This document shows positions 20,959-59,379 of a stretch of DNA of 64,000 nucleotides, one piece after another. Source of the stretch: Polychytrium aggregatum (taxonomy: Eukaryota > Chytridiomycota > Chytridiomycetes > Polychytriales); contig NW_026516257.1 in the NCBI RefSeq assembly GCF_025602895.1, positions 62,001 through 126,000 of the forward strand, read 5' to 3'. The notes under the pieces were generated by a model. It was not told the origin of the DNA and did not search any database. It was given only the letters and a program-made list of their open reading frames with translations. A program made the translations under genes and the position numbers. Numbering within the stretch: the stretch's first letter is position 1; each line of letters begins with the position of its first letter.

Positions 20959-21420
20959 TACAGTCTATCCAGAACGAAACGGGACAGTTCCTTCCTGGCT
21001 TCAGAGGCCTGTAGCCTGCCGAACTTACATAGGCCCCGGTGGCAAGCCATGTGATTGTTTCTCGTCCTGGTTGGCAATCTCGTTGTGTGGTGTATCTACT
21101 CGATCCTTTGGACAGCTCCATGGTGGATTGATATCAAGATACTCGACCTTCTCGATTCGCTTGGCTTCCAGGCACTGTGAGCAGACCTGTGATGTGTTGA
21201 ACTCGTTCACCGAGCACACATGGGTGGGTGAATTGCTCGAAATACCGAGCGAACCTGAGTCTCTGGGCTGGATGCATGCCCCTTCCCTTGCTTCCACGAG
21301 GCATTCCCAAAGGCAATCACCACTTCGGTCTCCTTGAACATACTGTTGGCCACGAATGCGATGAGTGGGTGGGTGTATTGAGGATCAGAAATAATTGGCA
21401 ACTATAACTCAACAGGGTGT
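20959..21420 (-). mobile_element. Decayed mobile element with TnpB/Fanzor-like C-terminal coding remnant (copy A)
   Basis: The minus strand encodes pieces resembling the end of OrfB/TnpB/Fanzor proteins. One frame reads VVIAFGNASWKQGKGHASSP (compare the family pattern with FGxA, then KG, then SxP). After a frameshift near 21230 another reads NEFNTSQVCSQC (compare the (D/E)-x-x-TS-x-x-C-x-x-C zinc-ribbon start), then LEAKRIEKVEYLDI. The expected acidic residue before EFNTS is Asn here, and the second CxxC is not clear, so no active nuclease is encoded. The low-coordinate end begins at TACAGTC, a form typical of Tc1/mariner-type ends at TA sites. A second copy lies at 59023. The family assignment is inference from these motifs. 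Confidence 0.5.
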
Positions 21421-21505
21421 CTCATTTCACTTTGAAACACGGTAAACACTACTCAAAATGAACCGTGTCGCACTATTTGACCTTCTTTAGTCTTGACTAT
21501 GGGCA

Positions 21506-21535: not shown

Positions 21536-21910
21536 CTCCATTTGAGTGCTTTCGCACGTCACAACGCTTCCACGACGCACTCCCAAAGCCAGCCTCAATG
21601 CGAGCGAGCGGACGGGCGGGCGTGTACACAGGGCCTCAACGAAAGGCGGCACGCAATGCTCAAAGACGGGAATTCAAACGTGCAACTGAACTCGTATATC
21701 GTGTGCATCAGTGTCGGTGAATGTATGAAGCCAGCTCACGACCCAGGTTGAAGGGAAAGGATGCATGTCATGGAGGAGTAGTTGCAGGAGATCAGCAACC
21801 ACCCTATCCGTGTTCTTGGGCTTGCTGTCGTTCAAGTAGGCACTGGTGCTGACGGCACGGCTGCCGCTGCTGATGCGAATGCTGTTGGTGGTTGGCGCTG
21901 ATCCATGTTG
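21536..21910. other. Spacer between element relic and ORC2 3' end
   Basis: About 375 bp. It may include further unrecognisable element sequence. No gene is supported. Confidence 0.4.
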
Positions 21911-21961
21911 GCCACTACTCCATGTCGGCCACTACTCCATGTTCGCCACTACTCCATGTCC
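21911..21961. repeat. 17-bp tandem repeat spanning the ORC2 stop codon
   Basis: Three units of GCCACTACTCCATGTCG with small changes. On the minus strand each unit contains ATGGAGTAG, and the first supplies the last two codons and stop (Met-Glu-stop) of ORC2. Confidence 0.85.
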
Positions 21962-24381
21962 GCCACAACCGTTTTCAGCAGTTCTACGTTCATGGGAATG
22001 TACACGATATCCCCGACCGCGCCTGTTCCCGAGCCCGTCTCGACAATCAGCTCGTGGTCCAGGAACTCGCGCAGCTGTGTCTTGAAGGTGATGTCGTTGC
22101 TGACTAGGAAGTGTTCCTTGCATTTTTGGTAGAAGGCCTTGCGAGTCATGCCCACCTTCTCTTTCGAACCCACACCGGCGCCGTTCCGGCCGGTATCGTC
22201 ATGGTCGTCAGGATCACCAGCGCCTCGACCGTCGTTGCTGTTTCCATCGGCATCGTCGGGAATGCCGTCGTCGTCGCCGTTTTCGCGGCTGGGTGCTTTG
22301 CGCTTGCCACCCCGGCCGGATGCTTTGGTCCTCTTGTCCGTCTGTGCTTTCTCGGATTTGGAGATGCGGCTTTCCTCAAGCGCAATTTGCGACTGGGCCA
22401 GCAGCTTGAACATCTTGCGGGCATTGACTGTGCAGCTCTTGAGGATGTACTGGCAGCCACGAAGACTCGTGCCTTCGGACTGGCCCATGGTCGTCAGCAT
22501 GCGCAGGCAAGAGCCCTCATAGCTCGTCTCGATCGTCAGAGGCTCGAACGTCGTGGCGTCATGCCAGATCCAGTTGAACCGGCTCAGCTTGTCCGTGTCC
22601 CAGAGCAGTGGGGCGTTGATGTGGTCGATCGAGGCAATCAAATGGATCTGTGGATGGCCTGCCAGCATTGCCAGCACCGTTTGTGCATTGGCGTTCCGCA
22701 GCGAGTCGCCATCGATGTTGTGGACGACAATGCAGATGGACTTGTGCTTGCGCTTGGGATCTGAAAAGTAGCTGAGGATGAGCTGGGCCTGGTCGACCAA
22801 GGTTCCGCAGGGCCCCTTGTGCACCACAATCGAGTCGAGTATCAGGGTCATGATCTCCTTGATGTTGATCGACGGAAAATACCCGTTCACGACGATCTGA
22901 TGCATGTCCGACAAGTACCGGCCCACAAACGCAGTCAGAAGCTTCTTCTTGGACCCGTATCCATAAAACAGCAGGTTGAATCCCGAGGCCAGCTCAAAGT
23001 ACCACTGTGGAAACAGCTCGAAATGGAGCTGTCCGAGTCGCTCGCGCTCGGTTCGCAGGATCTGGTGAGTTTTTGAGGATATTTCCAGGAAGATTTTGTG
23101 GTCCAAGGGCGGCAGCTGCGACAGCGTGTGATCGGATGTGGTATGGCGCTTGTCGTGGACGCTCTGGAAGTAGTTGTTGAAGCTCGAGCCCAGCGTGGCC
23201 AGTAGTCCCACGCCACGGGACTCGCGATCCGCTTCAGATTCTTCGCCATCTGTGGACTCGCCTTCAAGGACGACCTTGAGTCGTTGCTCTCGAAAATGCG
23301 CCATCCCGTCACGACCGGCTTTGGCTGCATGGTTGGTCTCGTCGTCTTCCTCATCGCTACTCGCGGCATTGCCCCTGTCATCGACGTCATCATCGCCGTC
23401 GTTGTCGTCGGCGTTGTCATTGTCGTCGCTGTCGGACTCTGCTTCGTTCTCGATCAAGGACTGGAACTTGCGATCGACCTTGATGCGCTTGCGTGCCTGT
23501 GCTTGCGACCGCGGTGTCATTTCATTTTTGTTGAGGAGCTGCACTCGACGACGTCCGCCACGCTTAGGGGTGGCGGCGCCCTGGAGCTCAACATCGGGCT
23601 CGATGGCAGCAAGCCGACTGGTTGCCGTCGCAGCCAAGGGGCCTCGTCGCCGTGACGGAGTCGAGGGCTCCGGGCGGTCGGCTGGCTGGAGGACCGACGT
23701 TCGATGGGGGCTGCTAGCGATAGTACCCAACGCCAGCCTTGATGGGGTCAATTGGCCCGGAGCCACTCTCGACAGGGCTTTGCTTGGTGTGGCTTTGGCG
23801 GGAGTGTCGCCGGCACGGCGGCCCCGCCGGGTCGGGGTGGATGGGGGCTGTATCTCGGCATCGTTGTCGCTGTTTGGCTGGTCGAGCGACTCCTCGATCG
23901 ATTTCTGGGACTGGACCAACTGCCGAAAGGCTCTCGTGGACTGCGCTTTGTGCTCGAAGCGATGGAGATTCCGACCCAGCACCGACCCTTGGTTCTCCTT
24001 GAGCTCGTTGTCGTTGTCGTCGTTGTCGTTGCCGTCGTCGTTTACCTCGTCTGCGTATGCGGTAGACAGAGTGTCACGCGATTCTGGCCGATCCGACCTT
24101 CGGTTGTGCGTTGGCGTGGATGGACCGGCTCCGGCCGACCGAGTCCGGTTGGCCTTGCGGATGTTGTGTCGGCTCTCCTCGACCGAGAGAAAGTCGTCGA
24201 TGGCCTGCTGGCTCGTGAAGAGCGAGGATTTTTCCAGAAAGATCTGGTGGGTGGAAATCGAAGTGCCGGCATTTTTGCTGGCGAGACTGCTCGAGGGGCT
24301 GCTTGGGCCGTGCTGGTTCTGCAAATCCAGAGTGAGGGCGTGGACCCGACGAGTGGATCTGGATCGGCCGGTGGGATTCAT
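21949..24381 (-). CDS. ORC2: Origin recognition complex subunit 2
   Basis: Intronless 810-aa frame starting MNPTGRSRSTRRV. The N-terminal ~400 residues are disordered, Ser/Thr/Arg- and Asp-rich, with acidic runs. The conserved C-terminal core contains LHFELFPQWYFELASGFNLL, the Walker-A-like FYGYGSKKKLL, INIKEIMTLILDSI, the Walker-B-like ICIVVHNIDGDSLRN, HLIASIDHINAPLLWD and FNWIWHDATTFEPLT, all ORC2 signatures. A low-complexity insert (KRKAPSRENGDDDG...) separates the core from the winged-helix part (MTRKAFYQKCKEHFLVSND). ORC2 is part of the hexamer that binds origins and loads MCM helicase. The length is close to that of other fungal ORC2 proteins with long tails. Confidence 0.95.
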   Translation of the reverse strand: MNPTGRSRSTRRVHALTLDLQNQHGPSSPSSSLASKNAGTSISTHQIFLEKSSLFTSQQAIDDFLSVEESRHNIRKANRTRSAGAGPSTPTHNRRSDRPESRDTLSTAYADEVNDDGNDNDDNDNELKENQGSVLGRNLHRFEHKAQSTRAFRQLVQSQKSIEESLDQPNSDNDAEIQPPSTPTRRGRRAGDTPAKATPSKALSRVAPGQLTPSRLALGTIASSPHRTSVLQPADRPEPSTPSRRRGPLAATATSRLAAIEPDVELQGAATPKRGGRRRVQLLNKNEMTPRSQAQARKRIKVDRKFQSLIENEAESDSDDNDNADDNDGDDDVDDRGNAASSDEEDDETNHAAKAGRDGMAHFREQRLKVVLEGESTDGEESEADRESRGVGLLATLGSSFNNYFQSVHDKRHTTSDHTLSQLPPLDHKIFLEISSKTHQILRTERERLGQLHFELFPQWYFELASGFNLLFYGYGSKKKLLTAFVGRYLSDMHQIVVNGYFPSINIKEIMTLILDSIVVHKGPCGTLVDQAQLILSYFSDPKRKHKSICIVVHNIDGDSLRNANAQTVLAMLAGHPQIHLIASIDHINAPLLWDTDKLSRFNWIWHDATTFEPLTIETSYEGSCLRMLTTMGQSEGTSLRGCQYILKSCTVNARKMFKLLAQSQIALEESRISKSEKAQTDKRTKASGRGGKRKAPSRENGDDDGIPDDADGNSNDGRGAGDPDDHDDTGRNGAGVGSKEKVGMTRKAFYQKCKEHFLVSNDITFKTQLREFLDHELIVETGSGTGAVGDIVYIPMNVELLKTVVADME

Positions 24382-32700: not shown

Positions 32701-33155
32701 GCCACATGGACGAGGATGGCACGCAGTCGGACGGTAGCGAGAAGCGCCAGCGACGCTACAAGTGCCGTTTTGGAGGGATCGAGTGCCACAAGCAGTACAA
32801 GAATCTGGGTGGTCTGCGGTACCACTTTATTCACCATCATCCCGAAGTGGACTGGAAGGAGGAGCTCAAATCGATCAAGGAGGAGCGCGACGGACCAGCA
32901 GCAGCGGTAGCATCAGCAGCATCAGCATCAGCAGCAGCAGCAGCGGGCCATACAATCGACAACAACTTTGACGACCTGAGCGCGGCCCAGCTGGAGCAGC
33001 TGATGTATTCGCTTGAGTCGGCAGATATGTCGAGCATGGGCGTTGGTGGGCTGGACCACTACGGCGACATCGCAAACGACTATCTACAGTATCCACAAAA
33101 TGAAACAGGACACCCTAATGCTGAGGCCGACGGGCGCTTTTTCTCGAGCTCCTGA
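29730..33155 (+). CDS. SFP1-like C2H2 zinc-finger regulator (1141 aa)
   Basis: Single exon starting MRPSTSASGPFQDPSKSSN. Most of the protein is disordered and Ser/Pro/Ala-rich. A first finger lies near residues 300-330 (IPSCCEMTFSSYNELMQHLQ, ending H-x-x-x-H). A paired set lies near residues 965-1050: PYKCLFPNCTKSYKNANGLK with KYHIEYGH, and YKCRFGGIECHKQYKNLGGL with RYHFIHHH. The split arrangement and the YKNxxGLKYH signature are those of the Sfp1/JAZF1 group, which links TOR signalling to ribosome-gene expression in yeast. Residues about 345-382 contain four LGTSxSDxM-type repeats, and a poly-Ala/Ser stretch follows the fingers. Yeast Sfp1 is shorter (683 aa). Orthology is inferred from the finger signature. 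Confidence 0.82.
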   Translation: MRPSTSASGPFQDPSKSSNPTTSSSTANSKRSSTDQPPATLLQMLASQLAGLGQGSSSAAAILNPTVTDPLGLQSLPQAPPALQNRSPTPSVSTPALALPSGGSSRSSVHRTSPAVPNTSYASGLPLLRTDTGSSRSSVSSTGTQPSNVRTQSMPSVRKDVSSAGLSAANANPSAAISNWTLPPQVLPLGDPYMIGSVVPSASASASSSSSSSSIRPIGTLDPSSFAYLAPEAMWNQILDPSATSSTSSMRHSTSSVSLSNAPSSGSALNVSAIQSSQGLSSAAAEAPSTTDTSNFDYPIPSCCEMTFSSYNELMQHLQISHAHEYLSFDDPAQNHSILSYLAQSLGTSVDDKLLGTSISDKMMLGTSVSDRMLGTSLSEFQHPVALGATIPIYNRDSANAQARAFVPDGLYGALGANAFDPMASTPTSQGQAKRSLTTAAFSIGSYNSQFDLKRFREGIPSPMMPSDFGGMVPGFDPPAMADPSQLPQSNATVVPDLQSHDSPHTRTFAHPISRASHAGHHVKRHGRSQSQKYEHPASETQLASKPNRASLSHPDAAREALAAQLAAQPPGLAQTASLPGQILPFSLSTSTIFPQASQTQHVAQLSTPSPLLSQQRSFSQPGRDPGTIYYKPTSQLTKGLAPEMMSAAQSTPQAMIPTPALSQNPMPPPADASIFRMFTGGIPTAAAPSMLANNAQGPMHPDPLLQLNGTQIDAKSGSIAGLYPGIPARMGPVNGASQADQATQGAQIFDGGFVNPSGLLHAAGIPIHRPVSSSSHRTELDDIIQSLETSTSLKSPPILPIVATDAYMEKFSLLDPSLSQSAAMDLVPDSQNLTNATGGAHVLVPPLPGVGVSYLAPDINPYFTRSGTPMSQFSPQPSPKASPRVSHASSVSAPASNSPSSSPALSSVSAPATPHSIAGLMSGPAVPSGPSGGLGSGSGTGSGSGAGMKKSKAASSSADPPVSKPYKCLFPNCTKSYKNANGLKYHIEYGHMDEDGTQSDGSEKRQRRYKCRFGGIECHKQYKNLGGLRYHFIHHHPEVDWKEELKSIKEERDGPAAAVASAASASAAAAAGHTIDNNFDDLSAAQLEQLMYSLESADMSSMGVGGLDHYGDIANDYLQYPQNETGHPNAEADGRFFSSS

Positions 33156-33462
33156 ATACACATGTCCATCCATCTTGGTGAGCATTCGTTGTGCGTTTTT
33201 TGGGTTATGCGTCTCTGCCGTGTGGTGCTACCTGTTGAGAGGAAAATGCGCACATTGGCGTGGTGGAGGATGGAACGGCTTCTCTGCACGCTGTGATGTC
33301 CGGTTGATACAATACAGACATCCTGGGGAGGTTAATAGTGGCGAAGGTTGGGCAAGAAAGCCCTCCCGGTTAGATCCGATGCCCAACGATCCGGCCAGAT
33401 CTTGGCTCCGGCTCTCCACCGATCTCTCCCTCATCTGCCCTTTCCACCGACAAGCCACCAAC
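33156..33462. other. Intergenic, SFP1-like / SPF27
   Basis: 307 bp between a stop and the next start on the same strand. Nothing is recognised. Confidence 0.4.
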
Positions 33463-51478: not shown

Positions 51479-52257
51479 GGCGGATGCAGAGAGGCGATAG
51501 GGCAGCAGGATCGGTTGGCGAGATCGAGGGAGAGTCCTGGCCGGTGCTTGGTTTGGCGCGACCTGGCTCTGGAATGGTGGTGCTTGAATTGCTCAAAGTA
51601 CTTGGCCAAGCGCTGCCTCCGAGGGCTGGATCAATGGCCCTTGCCTTGACGCTGCACTGGTCTCGGTGTGCCAGCGGTGAATAGCAATCTTGGACACACT
51701 GAATATGGAAGCAACGTTTCTCAGGCTATGGATGACGGTATTGCACCGCATCACAGAATAGTCATGGCCAGCGCGCGATGGTATTGGGTGACAATATATG
51801 TGATCAATGGTCAAAGAACCAGGGTGTCCCGTTTTTTATTGGAATGCCAGTAAATCGACACGATCATCACGATCATCGCGATCATCACCGTCGAGACGAC
51901 ACTCGACCCAGTTCCACCGGATCCAGTCGTCGAGGTCGGCGTCGTCCTGGAAGCTCTGGTTGGCTTGGTCCAGGTGCTCCCACCAGGGCTTCTTTGCATC
52001 CCGGAGGGCAGCATTGTGGCATTGCCGGACGAGCAGTCTGTGTCGAGGCTCGATATGCAGCTGGCGGACCGCTTCTGTGGGATCGTCAAGCCAGCCATCC
52101 ACTTCTGGTGGGAGAGGGAGGTGCGAATCGAATGTGAATGTGGCGGCCAGCACCTGGTGGGTCATGCTCCTAACCAAGCGCAGGAGTGAGCAGCGAATCT
52201 GCGGCCATCTCGTCAGTTTGTGGCGATCTCATCCTGAAGGCGGGTGCCAGGCTCTGG
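51479..52257. other. Upstream region of the MED1-like gene
   Basis: About 780 bp including the unexplained minus-strand frame 51836..52177. It contains short CGATCATCACGATCATCG repeats near 51858-51880. Confidence 0.4.
51836..52177 (-). CDS. Unassigned Trp-rich 113-codon ORF, possible exon
   Basis: A frame with composition unlike its surroundings: PPEVDGWLDDPTEAVRQLHI, DAKKPWWEHLDQANQSFQDD, then DDWIRWNWVECRLDGDD and an Asp/Arg repeat tail. It lies just downstream of the IQ-motif frame on the same strand, with an acceptor-like TTGGTTAG before it, so it may be a 3' exon of that gene. I found no donor in matching phase, so it is kept separate. Confidence 0.3.
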   Translation of the reverse strand: MVRSMTHQVLAATFTFDSHLPLPPEVDGWLDDPTEAVRQLHIEPRHRLLVRQCHNAALRDAKKPWWEHLDQANQSFQDDADLDDWIRWNWVECRLDGDDRDDRDDRVDLLAFQ

Positions 52258-59022: not shown

Positions 59023-59379
59023 TACAGTCAATCCAAAACGGGACAGTGATCCGTTTTTACTCTGGCATCCAGAGGCTTGCAGCCAGCCTGCTGAACTTCC
59101 GTAGGGACCCCTCCCCCTAGTGGGCAGGGCTGCGCGATTGTTTCCAGTCCTGGTTGGCAATCTCTCTGATTTGGTTGGTTTCAGGAAGCGTGGTCTTGAA
59201 TACACCCGATCGATCTCCTGTGGCGACGATCGACTGGTATTGATGTCTCGATGCGGGAGTGTGGTGGATGCATTCGATGTGTGAGTGTGGTGGATGCATT
59301 CAGCCCTCTGGACAATCCCATGGTGTATCGATATCAAGATGCTCGGCCTTCTCGAGCCGCTTGGCTTCCTGGCATACTG
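59023..59379 (-). mobile_element. Second, more decayed copy of the TnpB/Fanzor-like element (copy B)
   Basis: It shares with copy A the TACAGTC terminus followed by AAACGGGACAGT, the block reading GATTGTTTCCAGTCCTGGTT and GGCAATCTC, and a minus-strand segment translating CQEAKRLEKAEHLDIDTPWD, against CLEAKRIEKVEYLDINPPWS in A. The differences are conservative, so this was once protein-coding. Copy B has extra sequence of about 130 bp in the middle, including a duplicated GAGTGTGGTGGATGCATTC, and an in-frame stop. It lies about 315 bp downstream of the GLI-like gene. Confidence 0.55.

Follow-up and report, generated by a model that had tools for sequence, protein, structure and literature searches.

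The window, meaning the whole 64-kb stretch of DNA analysed (part of contig C370 of a 64.7 Mb genome), carries on its minus strand a short sequence, here called copy A, in which the relic of a TnpB/Fanzor-like nuclease with a Tc1/mariner-style end had been predicted. To what kind of element does this relic belong, by what means did it reach its site, and which relatives does it have in the genome? Copy A very probably derives by deletion from a Tc1/mariner-type transposon carrying a Fanzor1-type gene (Family II, see below); it is dead and non-autonomous, and its transposase would have been supplied in trans. Coordinates of copy A, of its parts and of related remnants are collected in Table 1, which includes four more remnants of Families I and II in the window.

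Motifs predicted on the minus strand are present in copy A in separate frames, FGNASWKQGKGHASSP in one and NEFNTSQVCSQC in another. An open Family II Fanzor frame, compared to the 64-kb window by tblastn, aligns to 21371-21121 as one homologous stretch (E 1.9e-24). The 39-aa piece carrying NEFNTSQVCSQC (21121-21237, minus strand) comprises the first half of the zinc ribbon and the alternative RuvC-II glutamate, and matches the PF07282 profile below cut-off (E 0.0012, 19.4 bits, cut-off 26.3 bits). No Pfam family was matched by the piece at 21264-21371 (minus strand). When compared to Family II Fanzors, copy A retains the FGNASW-KG-ASSP stretch and the first half of the zinc ribbon; everything upstream is absent, the RuvC-III aspartate has been lost by internal deletion, and the reading frame is broken between the two motifs. 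Of the catalytic set the E motif alone is left, RuvC-I being absent and RuvC-III deleted. Copy A is dead, as had been proposed along with the frameshift, because the N-terminal bulk, RuvC-I and RuvC-III are missing. It is a relic, with no Fanzor gene in itself, and having two Fanzor-element ends without an intact Fanzor gene it belongs to the elements called ghosts.

Both ends of copy A are marked by TA and by imperfect terminal inverted repeats (TIRs) of about 28 nt, as in Tc1/mariner elements, and the same organization is found in the elements of Family I. The base preceding the left TA of copy A is T. The TACAGTC at 20959, given in the original prediction as the element end, is a true end in short copies, where similarity stops and flanks differ; the upper boundary had been set at 21420, 24 bases short of the actual one (21444). 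The repeat extends past TACAGTC in 17 of the 40 fetched copies that have an exact right end, because those copies sit in another carrier.

Table 1. Position of copy A, its components and related sequences
Feature	Position	Strand	Details
Copy A, short non-autonomous "ghost" Fanzor/mariner-type element, both ends present	20959..21444	-	486 bp, TA at each end; boundaries common to related copies with differing flanks
Right TIR of copy A (3' end in gene sense)	20959..20986	-	TACAGTCTATCCAGAACGAAACGGGACA; on the plus strand TACAGTC...GGGACA
Left TIR of copy A (5' end in gene sense), degenerate	21418..21444	-	TACCGTGTTTCAAAGTGAAATGAGACA, TA first
Fanzor remnant 1 of copy A (FGNASWKQGKGHASSP)	21264..21371	-	tblastn
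Fanzor remnant 2 of copy A, other frame (VCSVNEFNTSQVCSQC)	21121..21237	-	tblastn; PF07282 E 0.0012, below cut-off
Internal-deletion site of copy A relative to Family II	21091..21120	-	second half of zinc ribbon and RuvC-III aspartate gone
Right-end segment; branched 76-nt RNA fold in better-kept relatives, closing helix lost in copy A	20959..21034	-	
Copy B, shorter internally deleted remnant: right TIR and FGSASW piece	21505..~21604	-	direct repeats; blastn
Ghost-type left-end fragment	33085..33174	+	
Family I deletion derivative: left TIR, N-terminal transposase codons, Fanzor piece	51575..51853	-	
Family II Fanzor C-terminal remnant reaching decayed right end	59023..59374	-	
Family II Fanzor and mariner right end in CACTA-like element	C402:40028-43489; C378 (L036/L048); C375 (L040)		

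A reading frame at 21949-24381 (minus strand), which we take to be ORC4-like, has at its 3' edge a tandem 17-bp repeat, TCCATGTTGGCCACTAC (21885-21969). An Hsp90 frame also lies in the window; among PDB chains HSP 90-beta gives its highest score (1095.8 bits, vs 1058.7 for HSC82), which at most suggests an opisthokont host, and a fungus is our guess.

The proposed Tc1/mariner affiliation is borne out by elements with similar ends, which carry a Tc1/mariner-type transposase. The Family I element at C402 measures about 3.7 kb, and is made by a left TIR (TACAGGCAATCC...), the transposase, a 790-aa Fanzor and a right TIR (...AAAGTGTA). Family I ends have 386 left and 278 right matches genome-wide (reversed controls, 0). 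Three Family I loci were read over their whole length: the transposase frame is intact at C402 and broken at C68 and C223. At C2b, a Family II Fanzor lies beside an open mariner-type transposase (DDE_3, E 2.8e-23), the DNA of which is 95.7% identical to that of the C402 transposase over 1014 bp. As counted by eye, 34 residues separate the D of MDN from the E of IEN. A DD34E/D transposase within the same ends is found in relatives only, and copy A has none. Four long Family II loci were read: three reside in a CACTA-like carrier (see below), and only C2b has an open mariner-type transposase alongside. The similarity of C2b to the other Family II loci stops at the Fanzor stop codon, and the right end of copy A is absent there.

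A search of the genome with the PF07282 zinc-ribbon profile yielded at least 150 matches, all the scored ones above cut-off (150 of 663 first-look candidates were scored). Many fall within frames that stay open for about 750-970 aa, and further Fanzor or TnpB-like families are among the matches. In total, the genome hosts hundreds of copies related to copy A, and dozens have a long open Fanzor gene. The 790-aa frame of Family I is present in all six compared copies; one Family II copy encodes 850 aa. As judged from codon substitutions, the open frames are under purifying selection, with mean dN/dS of 0.28 in Family I (6 copies) and 0.32 in Family II (4 copies), all selected for open frames. 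The live relative envisaged in the original prediction exists in the sense of long open frames, which may encode active nucleases. Families I and II are 41-44% identical (7 aligned Fanzors). Two further TnpB-type families, L010/L011 (477-aa frame) and L018/L022 (447-aa frame), feature the motif EEYTSKTCTxC, and outscore Families I and II against PF07282.

The RuvC-I DPG (IDPGVGS), NEFNTSQVC, the zinc-ribbon cysteines and the RuvC-III RD are invariant in the seven aligned open-frame Fanzors. In NEFNTSQVC six residues separate E from the first cysteine, which is the alternative glutamate position. Fanzors have been described as having DPG at RuvC-I and an alternative glutamate six residues before the zinc finger (PMC10711439), and both features are found in 7/7 relatives. 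Spacings aside, the residues of the C-terminal motif D-X(125,275)-[TS][TS]XX-[C4 zinc finger]-X(5,50)-RD, given for Fanzors in PMC3627910, are also found in 7/7, and PF07282 exceeds its cut-off in both families (E 1.7e-9 and 7.8e-10 for the two Fanzors scanned, one of Family I and one of Family II). The lack of an acidic residue before the TS motif had been read as a sign of death. This was rejected, as 7/7 aligned relatives have NEFNTS, with E at the position of the Fanzor catalytic glutamate; the "missing" residue is a feature of the family and not of decay, because DPG, NEFNTSQVC and RD are invariant in intact relatives. NCBIfam TnpB models gave weak matches, below cut-offs. A profile search of the PDB detected weak TnpB/Fanzor relatives (LaTranC, E 0.052; Spizellomyces Fanzor 8gkh, E 0.41, among three matches at E up to 1), and single-sequence phmmer found no TnpB/Fanzor relatives. 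The TnpB/Fanzor-like origin proposed for copy A, weakly visible in its own PF07282 score, is carried by the above-cut-off scores of its open-frame relatives; checked for an unrelated product, these turned out to encode Fanzor-type proteins.

Short copies similar to copy A are dispersed in the genome. The region of copy A gave at least 55 matches (40 of 1137 first-look candidates were scored); many stop near 20959, and the longest near 21440. At up to 3 mismatches, the right-end pattern of copy A has 496 genome matches and the left-end pattern 275 (reversed controls, 0 for each). The left TIR, better kept in relatives, reads TACAG[CT]GTTTCCAAAATGAAATGGGACA. For alignment, 26 sequences were cut to 16 (3 had no recognised right end, 7 were near-duplicates or had no left end), namely copy A and 15 others, chosen for likeness to copy A. 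Short copies measure 484-603 bp (486 bp copy A), and 15 of the 16 aligned lack the stretch deleted at 21091-21120 in copy A, with the rest of the zinc ribbon and the RuvC-III aspartate; the exception is L059. RuvC-III is kept in L059 and L101. A search with one short copy had 40 copies scored, of which 24 align in two blocks interrupted by extra sequence; other classes of short copy therefore exist. Elements of about 270 bp with two left-type ends were also observed (e.g. C223:320673-320945, C325:15531-15800), as was a 646-bp short derivative (C68:255316-255961, partly in L101) in which the Fanzor C-terminus is kept open.

A DD34E transposase supplied in trans would have moved copy A into a TA by cut-and-paste, in a MITE-like fashion; the breakage of its reading frame and the loss of the closing helix from its right-end fold would be later events. 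The right end would have been retained because the end bound by the transposase, and probably the Fanzor guide-RNA scaffold of intact relatives, lie there. In such relatives the guide of the Fanzor RNA would probably be the flanking DNA beyond the right end.

Coding remnants of the ghosts were analyzed by codon position. Both motifs lie in one open run (44-159 aa) in 10/16 aligned ghosts, and do not in the other 6, copy A included. The third position is more variable at 21335-21264 (0.132 vs 0.032 and 0.024), and is not at 21237-21121 (0.086 vs 0.087 and 0.066). We take this pattern as inheritance or conversion from coding copies, and not as proof of a selected mini-protein. A 38-bp block (window 21222-21185) is nearly invariant, with 12 minor letters in 608 cells vs 10% overall, and 0 of 5000 column permutations were as low. 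It spans the NEFNTSQVC codons, and most of the sequences carrying it could not encode a functional nuclease; we guess that gene conversion by coding copies has conserved it.

Some of these data suit a simpler view, to which we assign slightly less than an even chance: short copies may be plain MITEs, mere substrates of the transposase, the Fanzor codons and the right-end fold being passive leftovers with no role in guide RNA now or recently. The loss of RuvC-III in 15/16 aligned ghosts and the failure of 6/16 to keep both motifs in one open run argue for it; the excess of right over left ends, counted at the same tolerance, argues against it, though 17 of the 40 fetched right ends sit in another carrier.

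The right-end fold weighs on both sides. In relatives it is closed by TACAGTC/GACTGTA, and in kept copies it beats shuffles, which plain MITEs would not lead one to expect: z ranges from -3.1 to -3.7 in L008, L050, L079 and L105, and is -2.8 in L101 and -2.1 in a CACTA-embedded right end (83 nt). Copy A, at -0.75, does not beat shuffles. A Family I right end scores -0.5 at 76 nt and -2.5 at 96 nt. The alignment was made from 51 distinct right ends, less 6 that were set aside, plus the window copy. Set aside were L103, a near copy of L075, and L061, L065, L067, L078 and L109, in which the segment is partly or mostly gone, a point in favor of plain MITEs. The named structure has 91.2% paired cells, vs 33-47% when slid along the alignment. 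No covariation was found above shuffles, and RNAalifold, run on 46 right ends, returned 9 pairs, none with changes on both sides; most right ends of this set had been selected by an exact 27-nt end, which itself limits covariation. This result also favors plain MITEs, and because of it the fold is put forward as a candidate, and not as a proven RNA. Rfam gave no match in the window at gathering threshold. From the ghosts and the 75-nt guide-RNA scaffold described in Spizellomyces (PMC10432273), we infer by analogy a putative guide-RNA role for the right end; the same paper describes Spizellomyces ghost guide RNAs working in a cell assay, a further point against passive leftovers.

Flanks provide additional evidence. 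The Family I left TIR, searched with at most 2 substitutions, led to 36 unique left flanks, where T precedes TA in 34 and A in 2, C2b being one of the latter; T precedes 12% of the TA dinucleotides in the window. An earlier subset had T at 28/28 unique sites. Family I right flanks feature no preference at +1, the mirror base A occurring in 3 of 17 unique sequences. The signal is weaker at ghost-type left flanks: among 17 unique ones, 10 have T, 6 have A and 1 has C. Short Family I derivatives (L150-L154) have T in all five unique flanks, so that the flank T is independent of a Fanzor gene in cis. The left-only TTA beside Family I is consistent with a target-adjacent motif, comparable to the CATA described for SpuFz1, in which CA precedes the left repeat (PMC10432273). 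It fits such a motif because a palindromic TA preference combined with random orientation would give no one-sided T; in this respect the flanks are unlike the prediction from mariner target preference that plain MITEs entail. Alternatively, the T may be part of the Family I element itself, since no empty site was found: 10 flank pairs were fetched, one duplicate site was dropped, and 0 of the 9 Family I flank pairs was found joined, 30 matches each spanning one flank only. For the same reason, TA duplication is deduced from the ends alone.

Copy A might also be an independently decayed full-length Fanzor element, truncated after insertion and extraneous to the amplified short family. Its broken frame and its divergence from relatives would suit this history, which is already disfavoured and which we regard as improbable: both ends are present, the left junction is the same as in the aligned short copies having a left end, the internal deletion is shared with most of them, and its length falls within their range. 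Hardly credible is a TnpB-like sequence from a bacterial IS or an integrated giant virus, since mariner-type ends are found on hundreds of copies dispersed through this one eukaryotic genome, and DPG and the alternative E are arranged as in Fanzors; these points outweigh both the below-cut-off matches to TnpB-family profiles and the occurrence of Fanzors in large DNA viruses (PMC3627910).

The mariner right end also occurs inside a second carrier, at the Family II loci C402b, C378b and C375b, where the repeat runs on past it for about 280 bp. At C402b and C378b the carrier starts with CACTATCAAT...TTTTCCGG and ends with ...TTTTTTCATAGTG. CACTA (EnSpm) transposons feature CACTA ends and a 3-bp target duplication. 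The carrier is defined as CACTA-like because it has CACTAT ends, and 3-bp duplications, as scored by eye, are exact at 6 of 10 distinct sites and not exact at the other 4. Upstream of the Fanzor frame, the last codons of a mariner transposase are retained (by eye). Among the 17 of 40 fetched right ends inside this carrier, 16 have an unbroken frame over the region of the zinc ribbon and RuvC-III, L089 being the exception. The would-be guide sequence is nearly constant (AGTATCT[CT]GCACTG...), and a 34-nt pattern taken from its position has 85 genome matches, counted regardless of an adjoining right end. L110, a copy of 253 bp, seems to have arisen by internal deletion rather than to be the original empty carrier. 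A literature search pairing Fanzor with CACTA found nothing; most subscription papers lay outside its coverage, and absence in print is not implied.

A broader scheme can be drawn, which we consider possible and rather unlikely. Right ends, those of ghosts included, would make up a dispersed library of guide RNAs for the resident Fanzors, TTA acting as the Family I motif. The CACTA-like carrier would have captured the Family II Fanzor and the mariner right end as a unit; the guide would have become fixed and internal, and the nuclease, freed from the insertion site of its own transposon, would have spread with one nearly constant guide.

Copy A alone is ordinary debris, and its value is as a pointer to the Fanzor system of this genome. 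As a ghost-type Fanzor relic within a mariner-type element, it is of a kind known from other genomes; the set of relatives around it is unusually rich. The genome combines transposase and Fanzor in one element, hundreds of ghost ends, a one-sided TTA and a carrier with a nearly constant guide, and would allow testing whether RNA-guided cutting helps a cut-and-paste transposon to copy itself; the role of Fanzors for host or transposon was called unknown in the 2023 Discussion of PMC10432273. The closest known systems are ghost Spu-1 in Spizellomyces and the Fanzor1-mariner elements that Bao and Jurka described. Ghost Spu-1 of Spizellomyces punctatus is short, its repeats lying about 550 nt apart (Saito et al. 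2023, PMC10432273). As in the elements analyzed here, inverted repeats enclose no usable Fanzor gene, intact Fanzor copies exist alongside, and the right end resembles that of the elements bearing Fanzor. In contrast, the aligned ghosts of the present genome, known from DNA alone, retain Fanzor C-terminal codons; the left flank has CA before the repeat in Spu-1, TTA in Family I; and relatives bearing a transposase are found here, whereas the description of Spu-1 in PMC10432273 reports none within its repeats. SpuFz1 endonuclease (PDB 8gkh) shares with the Fanzors identified here the TnpB-type zinc ribbon, RuvC-III and the D-E-D arrangement, and differs in that sequence similarity is weak (E 0.41). 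Fanzor1 genes in Tc/mariner elements have been described as PGv-1, PUl-1 and SPu-1 (Bao and Jurka 2013, PMC3627910). Likened by their description, those elements resemble ours in having TIRs, TA target sites and a Fanzor1 gene, which a mariner-like transposase may or may not accompany. They differ in protein size, SPu-1-1p measuring 633 aa vs 790 aa in Family I and 850 aa in a Family II copy, and in the present genome ends are counted by the hundreds, with short derivatives and a CACTA-like carrier in addition.
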